This document shows positions 42,021 to 52,809 of a DNA stretch of 64,000 bases, piece by piece. The DNA comes from Chelatococcus reniformis (GTDB lineage Bacteria; Pseudomonadota; Alphaproteobacteria; Rhizobiales; Beijerinckiaceae): positions 930,001 through 994,000 of the forward strand of contig NZ_BMGG01000001.1 of assembly GCF_014640075.1 (NCBI RefSeq), in the 5' to 3' direction. A program made the position numbers and the translations under genes. Each line of letters starts with the position of its first letter. Within the stretch, counting starts at the first letter, position 1. The notes below the pieces were generated by a model. It worked only from the letters and a program-made list of their open reading frames with translations. It ran no database searches and had not been told where the DNA came from.

Positions 42021-42674
42021 TTAAGAGCCCTCCAGGCCCCGGACGAACACGATGCGGCCTGCTGAATCCGTCAAGCTTTGGACCAAGGTTGCGTCGATTT
42101 TCCAAGATCTAGTGGCCTGCGTCAACTCAGACTCTACATCTTGACCCTTAGGAAACAGCGCAACCGTGCCGGTTCTCAACAAGTCTTTGGTCCAGCCGAG
42201 CAAGACGTCAAGCGGGGCGACAGCGCGCGCCGTGACGACATCGGTTTGGCCCGCGAAGCGTATGACGCAGTCCTCGATGCGGGCCTCGTGGATTGTAGCA
42301 GACGCGCCCGTGATTCGCGCGGCATGTCGAAGGAAAGCACATTTGCGACCATTCGACTCGACGAGATGGATATGGCCGCCGCTGTCGGCGAGCAGGATTC
42401 CCAGCACGAGGCCGGGGAAGCCGCCGCCGGAGCCCAGGTCGAGCCAATGCCGGGCGCCCGGGACGATGTCGAGCAACTGAGCCGAGTCGATGATGTGGCG
42501 CGTCCAGACGCGGTTGAGGGTATCCGGTCCGACCAGATTTTTGACCGCTTGCCAGCGCCGCAACTCGCTCTCCAGGAGGGCGAAGCGCTCTTCTGTTTCA
42601 CGTGAAACCGGGCGGAGGGCCAACGCCCGCTCGCGGTCGCCGAACGGATCCGCCCCCGAGCGATCCCGCTTCAC
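42021..42674 (-). CDS. rsmG: 16S rRNA (guanine527-N7)-methyltransferase RsmG
   Basis: A 217-residue SAM-dependent methyltransferase that makes m7G527 in 16S rRNA. The SAM-binding motif is [20 protein letters not shown], followed by [15 protein letters not shown]. The N-terminal helix carries [16 protein letters not shown], and its Val-Ser-Arg-Glu-Thr codons are formed by a parS site (42594-42609). Its start overlaps the mnmG stop by four bases. The order mnmE-mnmG-rsmG-parA-parB is the conserved origin-proximal block. Confidence 0.95.
42594..42609. promoter_or_regulatory. parS: parS site 1, inside rsmG
   Basis: TGTTTCACGTGAAACC matches the near-universal parS 16-mer TGTTTCACGTGAAACA at 15 of 16 positions. 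It lies within the rsmG coding sequence and encodes part of VSRETE. ParB is expected to load here. Confidence 0.92.
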
Positions 42675-44548
42675 GCAGCTGGCTCGACTGAGCGGTCGCG
42701 CCGCGCCAGCGCGGCGAGCAAGGTGAGGGCGGCCGGCGTCATCCCCTCTATGCGCGACGCCTGGCCGAGCGTGGCGGGTCGCGTCGCCTCGAGCTTCACC
42801 CGCAGTTCTGCGGACAGGCCGGGCAAGTTGAAATCCAATCCAGCAGGCAACGCCACGCTTTCACTGCGCCGGAACGCCTCGACGTCCGACGCCTGCCGAT
42901 CGAGATAGACGGCGTAGATGGCATCGGTCTCTAGCCGTTCACGCAGATGCCCGGGGATGCTTGCCAGCGCGGGCCAGATGCTGCCCAGCCGCTCGATCGT
43001 GATGCTTGGGTAGGATAGCAGCTGAAGCGCCGACCGCCGCACCCCGTCCTGGTTGACCGTCAGCTGATGACGCCCGGCCTCCGATGGCGTGAGACTGAGC
43101 GCGCGCAGTTGAGCGCGCGCGTGTTCCAGCGCGTTCGCCTTGGCAACGAATGCGTCCCGTCGTGCCCTGCCGACGCAACCGAGCTGGATGCCCTTCGGTG
43201 TGAGCCGCTCGTCCGCATTGTCGGCGCGGAGTGACAGCCGATACTCCGCGCGTGAGGTGAACATGCGGTAGGGCTCCGTCACGCCCTGGGTCACAAGATC
43301 GTCGATGAGCACACCCAGATACGACTCGGTCCGATCGAAGACCACCGGCTGCGCGTCGCCCGCGACGCGAGCTGCGTTGAGCCCGGCGACGATCCCCTGC
43401 GCCGCCGCCTCCTCATAACCGGTCGTGCCGTTGATCTGCCCAGCCAGGAACAGGCCCCGGACCGTGCGCACCTGCAACGTCGGATCGAGCGCACGGGGGT
43501 CGACGAAGTCGTATTCGACGGCGTAGCCGGGACGCAGCATCTGCGCCCTTTCCAGCCCGGGAATGGTGGCCAGAAAGGCGCGCTGGACGTCCTCGGGAAG
43601 CGACGTCGAGATGCCGTTGGGGTAGACGGTTGGGTCATCCAGGCCTTCGGGCTCCAGGAAGATCTGATGACTGGCCCGATCGGCGAAGCGCACGACCTTG
43701 TCTTCGATCGAGGGACAGTAGCGCGGGCCACGTCCCGAAATCTCACCGGAGTACATGGGGGCCCGATGCAAATTGGCGCGGATGAGGTCGTGGCCAGCCG
43801 CCGTCGTCCGCGTCACACCACAAGCGACCTGCGGATTGGTGATCCGCTCGGTCATTGCCGAGAACGGTTCGGGCGGGTCATCCCCTTCTTGCCGATCGAG
43901 GCTCGCCCAGTCGATGCTCCCACCGTCGAGGCGCGGCGGGGTCCCGGTCTTAAGACGTCCCATCGGCAGGCTCAGCCCGCCAATCGAACGGGCTAGCCGC
44001 AGGGCTGGCGGTTCTCCCGTGCGCCCGGCGGGCACCTTGACCTCGCCGACATGGGTGAGGCCGTTAAGGAACGTGCCGGTCGTGATGACAAGCGTTGCGC
44101 AGCCGAATCGGTCGCCGTTGCCCAACAGCAGGCCGGTCACCCGGCCATCGACGACGTCGATCTCTGCCGCCTCCGCCTCGACAATCCACAAGTTCGGCTG
44201 CTGAGCCAACAGATCCTGCACGGCGGCGGCGTAGAGCTTGCGATCGGCCTGGGCCCGCGGACCACGCACGGCGGGACCCTTGCGACGGTTCAGCAGGCGG
44301 AACTGGATGCCGCCCCGATCCGCTGCAAGAGCCATCAGACCATCGAGAGCATCGATTTCGCGCACAAGGTGACCCTTGCCGAGGCCGCCGATTGCCGGAT
44401 TGCATGACATGGCTCCGATGGTCGCGGCGCGCTGCGTCACCAGCGCGACGCGCGCCCCAAGCCGAGCCGCGGCCGCAGCAGCCTCCGTCCCCGCGTGGCC
44501 ACCACCGATCACGATCACATCGAAGTTGGCAGGTTTCACGTGAAACAT
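42671..44548 (-). CDS. mnmG: tRNA uridine-5-carboxymethylaminomethyl modification enzyme MnmG
   Basis: A 625-residue FAD protein that, with MnmE, places cmnm5 on U34 of certain tRNAs. The FAD-binding motif is [20 protein letters not shown]. The second signature, [20 protein letters not shown], and the C-terminal helical domain ([15 protein letters not shown]), which binds MnmE, are present. The start ATG 44548 begins [10 protein letters not shown], and its first codons are a parS site (44532-44547). The frame is open well upstream, but that part overlaps mnmE and has no protein logic. The stop overlaps rsmG. Confidence 0.96.
44532..44547. promoter_or_regulatory. parS: parS site 2, at the mnmG start
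   Basis: GGTTTCACGTGAAACA, 15 of 16 to the parS consensus. It covers codons 1-6 of mnmG, with the start codon ending one base beyond it, so ParB bound here could also affect mnmG translation or transcription. Confidence 0.92.
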
Positions 44549-44556
44549 GTTGTCCG

Positions 44557-45912
44557 CTATTTTCCGATACAGAAGGAGGAAAAGATCCGATCGAGAACCT
44601 CCTCCGCTCCCACATGACCTGTGATACGTCCCAGGGCCTGCACCGCATCGCGCAGGTCCTGGGCCAACAGCTCCGGATACTCGCGAGCGGCCTTCACGCG
44701 CCCCTCGCACACCCGAAGCAATGCGGCCCGGCAATCCTCAAGCGCCCGTCGGTGCCGGTCCCGCGTGATCAAAGCCGGCTCGGCCCCGACCAGCGCCCGT
44801 AGCTGTTGTTCGATCTCTCCGAGCAAGTCGGTCACCCCGGCGCCGGTCAAGGCCGATACCGAGATCTCCCCGAGTGAGGGCGAGGCTGAGACCAGATCGC
44901 TCTTGGTTCGCACCTTAAGCGCACCCGAGGGCGAGTCCGCGCTTGCCTCCCCGGCAGCTGCCAGCCATAGCACGAGATCCGCCTCGCTCATACGAGCGGC
45001 CGCTCGGCGGATCCCCTCGCGTTCGATTGGCTCGTGGGAATCCCGCACGCCAGCCGTATCGATCAGCGTGATCGGTAGACCGCCCAGATCGCACCGCACC
45101 TCGAGCACATCACGCGTTGTCCCGGGAAAGGGAGAGACAATGGCGACGTCGCGGCCCGCCAAGTGATTGAGCAGCGTGGATTTGCCCGCATTGGGTGGGC
45201 CAGCGATGACGACCGTAAAGCCGTCGCGGAGCCGCTCGCCGATGCGATTGTCGTTCAAGGTCGACTCGATCTGGATCCGAATCGAAATCGCCTCGGCCAG
45301 CGCCGGCCCGAGGAGATCATCGCCCACGTCGCCCTCGTCGGAGAAATCCAGATCCGCTTCGACCAGGGCCAGCGCTCCGAGCAGCCGCTCGCGCCAATCG
45401 CCAATCCGCCGGCCGAGCTCACCGCCGAGCTGCCGAACTGCCTGCCGCCGCTGGCTTTCCGTCTCGGCTTCCACGAGATCGGCAATCGCCTCGGCCTCGG
45501 TCAGGTCGAGCTTGCCGGCGAGGACGGCGCGGCGCGTAAATTCCCCCGGCTCTGCCAACCGGATGCCCGATAGCGACGTCAGCGCCGCCATCACGGCCGC
45601 GCTGACGCCCGTGCCGCCGTGCAGATGCAGTTCGGCCAAGTCCTCGCCGGTAGCGCTGGCCGGGCACGGGAAGAGTACCACCAGCGCCGTGTCGAGCACG
45701 TTACCCTGGCCATCCCGCAAGCGGCGCAGGCTCATCTGACGGGGATGCGGAAGCGCGCCCGCTAACGTTTCGAGAGCGAATCGAGTCCGCGTACCCGAAA
45801 TCCGGACCACCGCCAGGGCCGCCCGTCCCGGGGCCGTGGCCAGCGCGCAGATCGTATCCCCGCCGTGGGCTACAGTGTGTTTCACGTGAATCACCGCCGC
45901 GGAGAAGTACAT
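44557..45912 (-). CDS. mnmE: tRNA modification GTPase MnmE
   Basis: A 451-residue GTPase, partner of MnmG. The N-terminal tetrahydrofolate-binding domain starts [20 protein letters not shown]. The G domain has G1 [17 protein letters not shown]2 PGTTRD and G3 DTAGVRDS. The C-terminal cysteine motif is FCIGK at the very end, as the family requires. ATG 45912 with CAGGCAC upstream is used. A start at the internal GTG giving [10 protein letters not shown] is also possible and would place the parS-like site 45878-45893 over the start. mnmG follows eight bases after the stop. Confidence 0.94.
45878..45893. promoter_or_regulatory. parS: parS-like site 3, in the mnmE 5' end
   Basis: TGTTTCACGTGAATCA, 15 of 16 to the parS consensus, with the mismatch in one outer arm and the TTCACGTGAA core intact. 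It lies in the first codons of mnmE. Confidence 0.8.
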
Positions 45913-48256: not shown

Positions 48257-49300
48257 TCAGCCGTTCCCGGGCGCCCGTACCCGCGCGACCAGGCGCTCCA
48301 CATGGGCGAGCGGGGTTTCCGGCAGGATGCCGTGACCGAGGTTGAAGATATGCGGGCCCTCGCCGAAGGCGCCGCGGATACGCGCGACGGCGGCATCGAG
48401 GGCATCCCCGCCGGCGATCAAGGCCAGCGGATCGAGATTGCCTTGCACCGTCCGCCGCGGCTGCAACGTCTCGGCCGCCCAGGCCGGATCGATCGACCAG
48501 TCGAGGCCGATGGCGTCGATGCCATCAGCGGCCGCGAACTGCGTCAGCCGGTCGCCGACGCCGCGGGCGAAGACGATGACGCGGGCCCTTGGCCGCTCGT
48601 GCTTCACGTGCCGCACCAATCGCATGATCGGCTCGAACGACCAGCGCTCGAACAGGGCCGGCGGCAGGGCGCCGCCGAAGCTCTCGAAGATCTGCACGGC
48701 GTCGACCCCCGCGTCGATCTGTCCGACGAGATAGCGGGCCGACGCCTCGATCACCCGGTCGATCATCGCCTGCAGGAAATCCGCGTCGCGATACGCGGTC
48801 AGCCGGATCGGCGCCTGGTCGGGCGTGCCCTTGCCGGCGATCATATAGCTCGCCACCGTCCAGGGCGCCCCGCAGAAGCCGATGACGGCCGTCTCCGGTC
48901 CCAGGCTACCACGCACCCGCGCGGCGGTCTCCAGCACCGCGTCCAGCCGGCTGGGATCGCCCGTGAGCGAGGCGAGGGCGGCCGGGTCGGTGACCGCATC
49001 GAGTCGCGGTCCCTCGCCCTCGACGAAACGGACACGCTGGCCGAGCGCGTCGGGGATGACGAGGATGTCCGAAAACAGAATGGCCGCATCGAAGCCGAAG
49101 CGCCGGATCGGCTGCAAGGTCGCCTCGGCGGCGAGCGCGGGCGTGTAGCAGAACTCGAGAAAGCCGCCGGCCTTGGCCCGAAGCTCGCGGTACTCCGGCA
49201 GGTAGCGCCCGGCTTGCCGCATCAGCCACAGCGGCGGTATCGCGCTCCGTTCGCCGCGGAGCGCCCGCATGAACGGTGACGTCTCGTCGACGTTAGCCAC
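48257..49300 (-). CDS. hemE: Uroporphyrinogen decarboxylase
   Basis: A 347-residue TIM-barrel enzyme converting uroporphyrinogen III to coproporphyrinogen III. The signature IPPLWLMRQAGRYLPEYREL is near the N terminus, with AILFSDILVIPDALGQRVRF and the C-terminal NLGHGILPETPLAHVERLV. The start is a GTG at 49300 with AGGAGAAGGG upstream. In Caulobacter and other alphaproteobacteria hemE borders the chromosome origin, and here the 393-base gap at its 5' side has matching features. Its promoter is expected there. Confidence 0.96.
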   Translation of the reverse strand: MANVDETSPFMRALRGERSAIPPLWLMRQAGRYLPEYRELRAKAGGFLEFCYTPALAAEATLQPIRRFGFDAAILFSDILVIPDALGQRVRFVEGEGPRLDAVTDPAALASLTGDPSRLDAVLETAARVRGSLGPETAVIGFCGAPWTVASYMIAGKGTPDQAPIRLTAYRDADFLQAMIDRVIEASARYLVGQIDAGVDAVQIFESFGGALPPALFERWSFEPIMRLVRHVKHERPRARVIVFARGVGDRLTQFAAADGIDAIGLDWSIDPAWAAETLQPRRTVQGNLDPLALIAGGDALDAAVARIRGAFGEGPHIFNLGHGILPETPLAHVERLVARVRAPGNG

Positions 49301-49693
49301 AGGCGACCCTTCTCCTAAACAATTCTTTGAATCGGTAGTCTGTAGTTTCTGTTGAGCTGCGGATTAGCGCGGCGCAAGGCTGTCCACAATCGCTCCCCAG
49401 CCGCCTGCGTCAACCCGGCGGCCCGGGGGTGTTAGCAATCCGTAAACGAAAGGCAGGCCGGTTAACGATTTGTTAACCTGCGCGCCGGTGTCCGCGGCGC
49501 GCCATCCCGCTTCGTCCCGCGATCCCCAGGCCAGGGCGCCACAGCCCCGCCCCTGTTGATCGCCGTCCCGGGCCGCGCCAGAGTGGAGCGCCTCGATCGC
49601 TTCGGTTCGCGGTGCCGTCCACAGACGCGCAGAGTTGTCCCCCGCTCCGGGGCGGATGCATCGCAGCCGCAGGTGGCCATCCGGACCGCCGCG
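49301..49693. other. oriC: Putative chromosome replication origin (oriC) between hemE and ppsR
   Basis: A 393-base divergent gap with no gene. The hemE side is AT-rich for this genome (49311-49355). Two DnaA-box-like 9-mers, CTGTCCACA (49380-49388) and CCGTCCACA (49615-49623), each differ from TTATCCACA at two to three positions. A CtrA box and a half-matching one lie at 49432-49476, and a GC-rich hairpin GCGCGCC...GGCGCGC at 49480-49502. Genes diverge from this point on both sides, and parS-like sites lie 3.6-6.9 kb to the left and 3.2 kb to the right. The location matches the hemE-side origin of Caulobacter. Confidence 0.7.
49432..49476. promoter_or_regulatory. CtrA binding sites in the putative origin
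   Basis: A perfect CtrA box TTAA-CGATTTG-TTAA at 49462-49476 and a degenerate one TTAG-CAATCCG-TAAA at 49432-49446, 30 bases apart, about three helical turns. The perfect site is also a GTTAAC-N5-GTTAAC repeat. CtrA bound here could repress initiation and control hemE, as at the Caulobacter origin. Confidence 0.7.
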
Positions 49694-50563
49694 ATGCCGA
49701 AGTCGGGAGCCCGAGCGCCTTCGGATGTCGCCGTGAACCGCAGCTTTTTCCATCTCCATCTGGTCTCCGACTCGACCGGCGAAACCCTGATCGCGGTGAG
49801 CCGCGCGGTGTCGGCCCAGTACGAGGGCGTCGCTGCCATCGAGCACGTCTATCCGCTCGTCCGGTCGCGCCAGCAGCTCGACCGCGCCATCGGCGGCATT
49901 CAGGCGGCGCCCGGCATGGTGCTGTACACGCTGGTCGATGTGGAACTGGCCATGGCGCTCGAGGAGGTGTGCCGGGAGACCAGCTCACCCTGCCTGTCGG
50001 TGCTGGCGCCGGTGGTCAACATGTTCCAGTCGTACCTCGGGGCGTCATCGCAGGCGCGCCCCGGCGCCCAGCACGTGCTCAACGCGGAGTATTTCAAGCG
50101 CATCGACGCCATGAACTACACGCTGCTGCACGACGACGGCCAGCTGCAGGAGGACCTCGACGAGGCCGATGTGGTCCTCTTCGGTGTCAGCCGCACCTCC
50201 AAGACGCCCACGGGCATCTACCTCGCCAACCGCGGCATCAAGACCGCCAACGTCCCCTACGTTCCCGGGGCGCCGCTGCCGGCCAAGCTCGAGAACGTGC
50301 GGCGGCCGCTCGTCGTCGGCCTTGTGGCCAGCGCAGAGCGCATCGTGCAGATTCGCCAGAACCGGCTGCTGAGCCTCAACGCCAACGATCGCTCGTCCTA
50401 TGTAGACCGGGAGGCGGTGTCGGAGGAGATCTCCGAGTCGCGGCGGATCTGCATGCGCAACCGCTGGCCGGTGATCGACGTGACGCGCCGTTCCATCGAG
50501 GAGACAGCGGCGGCGATCCTCGATCTCTACCGCGAGCACCAGTTCACCTTCATCGCGACCTGA
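49694..50563 (+). CDS. ppsR: Pyruvate, phosphate dikinase regulatory protein (PPSR family)
   Basis: A DUF299 bifunctional kinase/pyrophosphorylase of about 289 residues that controls pyruvate phosphate dikinase or PEP synthase by ADP-dependent phosphorylation. N-terminal [19 protein letters not shown], the P-loop-like [20 protein letters not shown], and [20 protein letters not shown] are family signatures. ATG 49694 is used. A GTG at 49733 would start [10 protein letters not shown] and fits the usual length of about 275 residues equally well. It is the first rightward gene from the putative origin, as in related genomes. Confidence 0.92.
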
Positions 50564-51361: not shown

Positions 51362-52198
51362 ATGAGCCCGCGCGCCTGCGTCATCGGCGATCCGATCGCC
51401 CATTCCAGGTCTCCGCTGATCCATCGCTATTGGCTGGCGCAGCATGACATCGCCGGCAGCTATGAGCGCCAGCACATCACCGCGGCAGCTCTTCCGGCCT
51501 TCATTGCCGAGCTGCGGGCCGGCGGCTGGCGCGGCTGCAACGTCACGGTGCCGCATAAGGGGGCCGTGGCCGCCCAGGTCGACGAGCTGACGCCGGTGGC
51601 GGCAAGGCTCGGCGCAGCCAATACGCTGTGGCTGGAGGAGGGTCGGCTGCGGGCGGACAACACGGACGTGGCCGGTTTCATGGACAACCTGGATCAGGCC
51701 GCGCCGGGCTGGCGCGCGCGCGCCGGGGCGGCCACGGTGCTCGGCGCCGGCGGCGCGGCGCGCGCCGCGGTCCACGGTCTGCTGGAGCGGGGCGTCGGCA
51801 CCGTCCACGTGGTCAACCGGTCTGTGGAGCGGGCGACGCAACTGGCGCAGGCGTTCGGTCCACGCGTCAGGCCGGCGGCATGGGACAAGGTCGGGAACGC
51901 CTTGGCCGGCTCCGGGCTCCTGGTCAACACCACGTCGCTCGGCATGTCCGGACAGCCGTCGCTCGCCCTAGACCTGTCGCCGTTGCCGGCCGGCGCTACG
52001 GTCTACGACATCGTCTATGTTCCTCTGGAGACGCCGTTGCTGGCACAGGCGCGCGCGCGGGACCTCGAGGTGGTGGACGGGCTTGGAATGCTGCTGCATC
52101 AGGCGGTGCCGGGCTTCGAGCGCTGGTTCGGCGTAAGGCCCGAGGTGACCAAGGAGCTGCGGGACTTGCTCGTTGCCGACATCGAGGGAACGCGATGA
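51362..52198 (+). CDS. aroE: Shikimate dehydrogenase
   Basis: A 278-residue NADP-dependent enzyme that reduces 3-dehydroshikimate for aromatic amino-acid synthesis. Shikimate-binding: [16 protein letters not shown] and [12 protein letters not shown] with the catalytic lysine, then [14 protein letters not shown]. The NADP fold is [17 protein letters not shown] with [15 protein letters not shown] precedes ATG 51362. The final four bases overlap coaE (ATGA). The 173-base gap to maf shows no gene. Confidence 0.96.
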
Positions 52199-52809
52199 CC
52201 TTCTTGCTTGGCCTCACCGGCTCGATCGGGATGGGCAAATCGGCCACGGCGACCATGTTTCGGGCGCGCGGCGTCCCCGTCTATGACGCGGACGCCGCCG
52301 TCCATACGATCTATCGCGGTGTCGCGGCGCCGCTGGTGGAGGCGGCGTTTCCCGGCACCACGGCGGACGGCGTCGTCGATCGCCAGAAGCTGGGTGCCGC
52401 GGTGCTCGGCAACGACGCGGCACTGAAGCAGCTGGAGCAGATCGTTCACCCTCTTCTGCGCGGCGCTCAAGCCGAGTTCCTCGCCGATGCGGCCCGGCGG
52501 TCGCGGCCGGTCGCGGTTCTCGACATTCCGCTGCTGTTCGAGACCGGCGGTGAGCGGCGTTGCGACGCGGTGGTGGTGGTGAGCGCCCCGGCCTCGGTGC
52601 AGCGTGCCCGGGTGCTCGCCCGGCCGGGGATGACCGCCGAGAAGTTCGAGCTGATTCACGTGAAACAGGTGCCCGATGCGATCAAGCGCGCGCGGGCGCA
52701 TTTCGTTGTGGACACCGGTCGCGGCTTTGCTGCCGCTCGCCGCCAAGTGGACGATATTCTGCGGGCGCTCGCCGGCCGCACAGGACGCGTCGTGACGATC
52801 GTTTCCTGA
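52195..52809 (+). CDS. coaE: Dephospho-CoA kinase
   Basis: A 204-residue P-loop kinase for the last step of coenzyme A synthesis. Walker A is [17 protein letters not shown] at the N terminus, then [28 protein letters not shown] (substrate lid) and [13 protein letters not shown] 52195 with GAGGG upstream overlaps the aroE stop by four bases, so translation is probably coupled. A parS-like site (52652-52667) lies inside the gene and encodes ELIHVKQ. Confidence 0.95.
52652..52667. promoter_or_regulatory. parS: parS-like site 4, inside coaE
   Basis: TGATTCACGTGAAACA, 15 of 16 to the parS consensus, within the coaE coding sequence and on the opposite side of the putative origin from sites 1-3. 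Confidence 0.8.

Follow-up and report, generated by a model that had tools for sequence, protein, structure and literature searches.

A CtrA-type site conserved in the hemE/ppsR gap, the probable chromosome origin of Chelatococcus reniformis

Introduction

Among alphaproteobacterial replication origins, Cori of Caulobacter crescentus is one of the closest described counterparts of the locus studied here. The Caulobacter origin was mapped between hemE and a COG1806 gene, and a hemE-side location has been inferred for several relatives (PMC1914354), as the first-pass annotation of our locus had also stated. Cori, where the presence of CtrA at the origin is established, contains five CtrA sites, together with weak DnaA boxes and an AT-rich tract (PMC1914354; PMC4468827). 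Reducing the CtrA affinity of its sites only mildly disturbed replication in the laboratory (PMC4468827). Rickettsia prowazekii and Wolbachia also have a hemE-side origin with predicted CtrA and IHF sites, and the partner gene in Wolbachia is a different one (PMC1914354). In Hyphomonas neptunium, which belongs to another order than the organism studied here (PMC8116508), a CtrA ChIP-seq signal lies beside the origin (PMC7200025); this likeness is one of ChIP signal.

Sinorhizobium meliloti, of the same order as our organism, possesses CtrA, and its knockout failed or was harmful (PMC8116508). The origin of S. meliloti is reported to have neither a CtrA motif nor CtrA binding, and any link between CtrA and replication is described there as indirect and unknown (PMC4433202). 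CtrA of Brucella abortus, a well-studied member of this order, is likewise reported not to bind the origin. According to a 2015 review, CtrA sites in origins had not been seen outside Caulobacter and possibly Rickettsia. The literature that we covered, mostly outside subscription journals, did not show CtrA sites at the origin being described for Beijerinckiaceae or Methylobacterium. How CtrA couples division to replication in Hyphomicrobiales is the question that a CtrA site at the origin addresses.

Results and discussion

Organization of the hemE/ppsR gap

The window is the whole stretch of 64,000 nucleotides analyzed here (C1:930001-994000 of a 6.81 Mb genome in 39 contigs). The proposed origin is identified by its flanks, their divergence, a skew switch, the proximity of parS and a conserved motif architecture.

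49301..49693, no strand: hemE/ppsR intergenic gap, proposed chromosome origin
48257..49300, minus strand: hemE (TIGR01464, 379.8 bits)
49694..50563, plus strand: ppsR, regulator of the COG1806/DUF299 family (NF003742, 336.5 bits)

By NCBIfam and Pfam, the genes leftward of the gap are hemE, hemJ, rho, mnmE, mnmG, rsmG and a parA-like gene, and those rightward are ppsR, maf, aroE, coaE and dnaQ, which confirms the families of the two diverging sides named in the first-pass annotation. The dnaA gene is located on a different contig. An Rfam scan of the whole window gave nothing that reaches gathering scores. Inside the gap, we distinguish the following elements.

49301..49356, no strand: AT-richer hemE-side tract with a GANTC site, candidate unwinding element
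49380..49399, plus strand: weak DnaA-like boxes CTGTCCACA (49380-49388) and CGCTCCCCA (49391-49399), 11 bp apart
49432..49446, plus strand: degenerate CtrA-like box TTAGCAATCCGTAAA, two of eight fixed letters mismatched
49462..49476, no strand: perfect CtrA-type site TTAACGATTTGTTAA, TTAA-N7-TTAA, reading GTTAAC-N5-GTTAAC with its flanks
49520..49528, plus strand: weak DnaA-like core CGATCCCCA
49554..49562, minus strand: conserved TGTTGATCG (reverse complement CGATCAACA), resembling the DnaA box TTATCAACA with two changes; putative protein-binding site
49615..49623, plus strand: weak DnaA-like box CCGTCCACA, three mismatches

Like Cori, the gap has hemE and a COG1806 gene as neighbours and contains CtrA consensus sites, an AT-rich tract and weak DnaA-like boxes. 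It differs in having one full CtrA site instead of five, no IHF consensus, and two DnaA-like cores that stand 11 bp apart on one strand. As to the CtrA consensus of a Caulobacter-type origin, we find one perfect site and, 30 bases away, one degenerate site, in agreement with the first annotation; the perfect copy is the only one in the window. The one-sided AT-richness noticed in that annotation also stands, with 55% AT at 49301-49340 against 21–30% from 49501 onward. The IHF consensus WATCA-N5-WTR, a feature looked for in a Caulobacter-type origin, occurs eight times in the window (1.8 expected), and none of these copies falls within the gap; IHF sites are predicted at the Rickettsia and Wolbachia origins.

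For comparison, gaps were taken from 80 loci (the best 80 of 376), 29 further relatives and the genome itself. Five loci (L010, L024, L099, L109, L113) were excluded, as no hemE was found beside ppsR, leaving 105 near gaps, of which 102 are distinct. The hemE/ppsR gaps of two genomes of the same genus match those of Camelimonas lactis and C. fluminis exactly, which places our organism in the genus that includes Camelimonas; the PpsR proteins of these relatives show 77–78% identity to the one in the window. An order sample was drawn from the 127 of 150 order genomes with ppsR, taking 40 places at one or two per family, and hemE is adjacent in 39 of them. A class sample took 20 of the 49 extra-family class genomes with ppsR, with hemE adjacent in 19. 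The IHF consensus appears in 4 of the 105 near gaps.

GANTC is present in all 105 near gaps (619 copies in total, 245 in shuffles), and exceeds shuffles in the 39 other-family gaps (125 versus 76) and the 19 class gaps (58 versus 42). The sole copy in our gap is GAATC at 49329-49333, on the AT-richer side.

The DnaA-like boxes are weak. The two that had been annotated, CTGTCCACA at 49380 with two mismatches and CCGTCCACA at 49615 with three, are present as described, but neither convinces alone, and no box with 0–1 mismatch to TTATCCACA exists in the gap. As a window-level signal, boxes with at most two mismatches are not clearly enriched (54 versus 41 expected, reached by 3 of 100 shuffles). 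On the ppsR side, at the position of CCGTCCACA, many relatives carry TTATCCACA or CTATCCACA. The shorter core TCCMCA, chosen after the alignment, occurs four times on the same strand of our gap, where 0.23 is expected and none of 3000 shuffles reaches this number. The pair TCCMCA-N5-TCCMCA, with cores 11 bp apart, is found in 47 of the 105 gaps (0.05 in shuffles), and any other spacing from 0 to 15 in at most three. In an alignment of 30 picked rows, columns 49383-49388 are 97–100% conserved, and the TGTTGA columns of the site at 49554-49562 are 80–100% conserved.

The core is enriched in all three sets of gaps, and its one-strand bias is confined to the near set. Forward and reverse copies number 267 and 31 in the near gaps (shuffles 33 and 21), 53 and 40 in the other-family gaps (9 and 8), and 19 and 35 in the class gaps (4 and 9). 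From their sequence, we suggest that these cores may serve as DnaA sites.

We propose that the gap is the origin, with DnaA on the weak cores and phosphorylated CtrA on the central site opposing initiation, and we give this joint explanation a probability of roughly 0.75. It starts from the location evidence, the site conservation and the CtrA orthologue established here, and extends them by motif resemblance and by analogy with Caulobacter. DnaA would bind the weak same-strand cores and unwind the AT-richer hemE side. Phosphorylated CtrA would occupy the full site, which has the DnaA pair on one side and the ppsR-side boxes on the other; as in Caulobacter, it would restrain initiation or limit it under stress. 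CcrM methylation of GANTC may contribute timing.

The CtrA-type site is conserved in near relatives

A full CtrA site is present in 90 of the 105 near gaps, own gap included, and absent from 15; shuffles give 0.27 on average and 3 at most. Counting distinct gaps only, the site occurs in 87 of 102, or in 86 of 101 when our own gap is left aside. Of the 21 same-family genomes with a gap among the further relatives, 15 have it. The two TTAA halves stand 7 bp apart in 90 gaps, and every other spacing from 0 to 15 is found in 21 gaps or fewer. Shuffling our gap produces a perfect TTAA-N7-TTAA in 2 of 5000 trials. The rest of the same loci, 877 kb of mostly coding DNA with about 75 kb (in the 80 loci) non-coding by a simple heuristic, contains no full CtrA-type site.

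A second box with at most one mismatch lies within 70 bp of the first in 28 of the 90 gaps with a full box (1.0 in shuffles), and our own second copy is weaker than these. In the 30-row alignment, the mean top-letter frequency is 0.98 in the TTAA columns and 0.45 in the rest of the gap. These rows were hand-picked and nearly all contain the box, which biases the conservation of its columns and leaves the count of 90 in 105 unaffected.

The distance from the box to hemE has a median of 178 (IQR 166–227, 90 gaps). We notice no strong tie of the box to hemE, to ppsR (coefficients of variation 0.26 and 0.36, 90 gaps each) or to the DnaA pair (0.36, 44 gaps). Its spacing is tighter to TGTTGA (0.17, 70 of 90 gaps) and to the last TCCACA (0.12, 36 of 90).

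We regard it as unlikely, though the likeliest of the alternatives, that the gap is the origin and its CtrA site acts on hemE or ppsR transcription instead of replication. CtrA is also a transcription factor, both promoters must fit in the gap, and the position of the box relative to hemE varies only moderately. On the other hand, no conserved block resembling a -10 element accompanies the box; the non-box columns at 49400-49539 stay below 75% in the 30 picked rows. In addition, three loci with ppsR and no adjacent hemE (L010, L024, L232) have no full box upstream of ppsR. Both arguments are weak. The two roles of the site, in transcription and in replication, are compatible and do not exclude each other.

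Apart from this, gaps of Microvirga hold more CtrA-type sites than our own gap. In the L007 gap, for example, two full sites 59 bp apart and a one-mismatch copy are seen (gap positions 108, 167 and 188).

Skew and parS at the gap

The gap at 49301-49693 is very probably where chromosome replication starts. Four agreeing lines support this placement, namely flanking genes as in the mapped Caulobacter origin, GC skew, parS, and origin-like motifs shared across the family. The first-pass annotation had offered the placement as inference, and skew, parS and the conserved CtrA box now support it.

Skew of the own genome was sampled on contig C1 (1.08 Mb) only. Skew is mostly negative, with a mean below zero, in the 20 stretches to the left of the gap, and zero or positive in the four on the right (one-sided Mann-Whitney p 0.003; stretches mostly 20 kb, some shorter). 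A skew minimum elsewhere had been named as one observation that would speak against this origin. The sign on C1 does change at the gap, but the cumulative minimum of the window falls at 51508, outside the gap and 1.8 kb to its right.

A closed chromosome of the same family (G011) shows a clean two-arc skew over 36 stretches, which none of 100 permutations fits equally well. The break lies between the stretch midpoints 700 and 720 kb. In 1-kb steps over 690-730 kb only, the cumulative curve reaches its minimum at 706 kb and hardly changes between 703 and 707 kb; the homologous gap, located at roughly 703.4-703.8 kb, is approximately 2 kb away. Near the gap, a skew switch in the expected direction reaches p<0.05 in five of seven genomes tested (our own, G011, G021, G017 and G010). 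The switch is not significant in G022 (p 0.27) and not seen in G015; the G015 gap (L096) has no CtrA box, and that of G022 (L092) has one. These tests used six stretches for G010 and three for G022, hand-picked from 20. Over the whole chromosome, G022 and G010 gave no clean two-arc pattern, and the G010 fit puts the origin at 0.90-1.10 Mb, near its gap at 1.15 Mb and not on it.

Perfect parS sequences occur only twice in the whole genome, both 5–7 kb from the gap and within the rsmG and mnmG reading frames.

42595..42608, no strand: parS GTTTCACGTGAAAC, perfect match
44533..44546, no strand: parS GTTTCACGTGAAAC, perfect match

Copies with one mismatch lie at 45879-45892 and 52653-52666 of the window. 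For relatives, we searched seven 20-kb stretches beside gaps. In G017, two perfect parS (L306:7362 and 9427) lie at a distance of about 7-10 kb from the hemE/ppsR gap, and none was found in the examined stretches of G021, G015 and G011.

The window minimum outside the gap, the lack of a switch in G015 and the location of dnaA on another contig would suit an ordinary divergent promoter region that is near the origin without being it. We consider this very improbable, given that the skew minimum of the closed G011 chromosome falls within about 2 kb of its gap, that the Caulobacter origin was mapped to the same location, and that CtrA-type sites occur in the gaps and nowhere in the other 877 kb of these loci.

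Breadth across families and orders

In the order sample, the CtrA site is present in 17 of the 39 other-family gaps (shuffles 0.41, maximum 2) and absent from 22. Three genomes (G036, G037, G039) are counted both here and among the 105, and excluding them gives 15 of 36. Counted by family, the site was seen in 12 of the 28 sampled outside our own. Where two members of a family were sampled, they mostly agree, with the site in both members of f14, f41, f44, f34 and f40, in neither member of f11, f13, f28 and f18, and a mixed result in f27 and f16. Among other orders, the raw count is 2 of 19 gaps.

Judged by motif, the CtrA site at this gap appears common in this order and rare among the other orders sampled, though it is published for Caulobacter. 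The kind of origin is thus a known one, and its marking by CtrA seems unexpectedly widespread in this order. We see about an even chance that CtrA directly gates chromosome initiation in much of Hyphomicrobiales through a central hemE/ppsR site, that is, in this family and up to 12 of 28 others, and that this wiring, which S. meliloti and B. abortus are reported to lack, arose or was retained independently of Caulobacter. An origin CtrA site kept in many related families would give a direct, testable answer to how division is coupled to replication, and allows lineages with and without the site to be compared.

CtrA and its other sites in the genome

A CtrA orthologue is encoded at C12:22506; it scores above the NF045991 cut-off and is 83% identical to a Caulobacter sequence. 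The genome also encodes DnaA and GcrA-family proteins. Three GcrA-family matches are found, the best of which (L285, G000:C14:33350-33856) has one in-frame TGA in the matched stretch.

Perfect TTAA-N7-TTAA occurs 12 times in the 6.81 Mb genome, the gap copy being one of these. We find no genome-wide over-representation, as a backwards control pattern occurs 10 times; most of the 12 sites may therefore be chance. This control, together with the absence of strand bias in the TCCMCA cores outside the near set, slightly weakens the combined explanation.

Binding of the site by a protein other than CtrA, which could draw on this lack of over-representation and on the more symmetric TTAAC-N5-GTTAA in 35 of 105 gaps, receives little credence from us, as the paired TTAA with a fixed spacing of 7 and a variable interior fits the footprinted CtrA consensus TTAA-N7-TTAA.

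One of the perfect sites (L214:1501-1515, G000:C4:263862-263876) is located upstream of a gene for MinC, which has a MinC_C domain. In S. meliloti, CtrA targets minCD directly (PMC4433202), and the site upstream of minC is in keeping with CtrA reading this motif in our genome as well. Three other perfect sites (L218, L219, L220) adjoin, by names assigned by eye, an apparent penicillin-binding protein, an L,D-transpeptidase and ftsE/ftsX.
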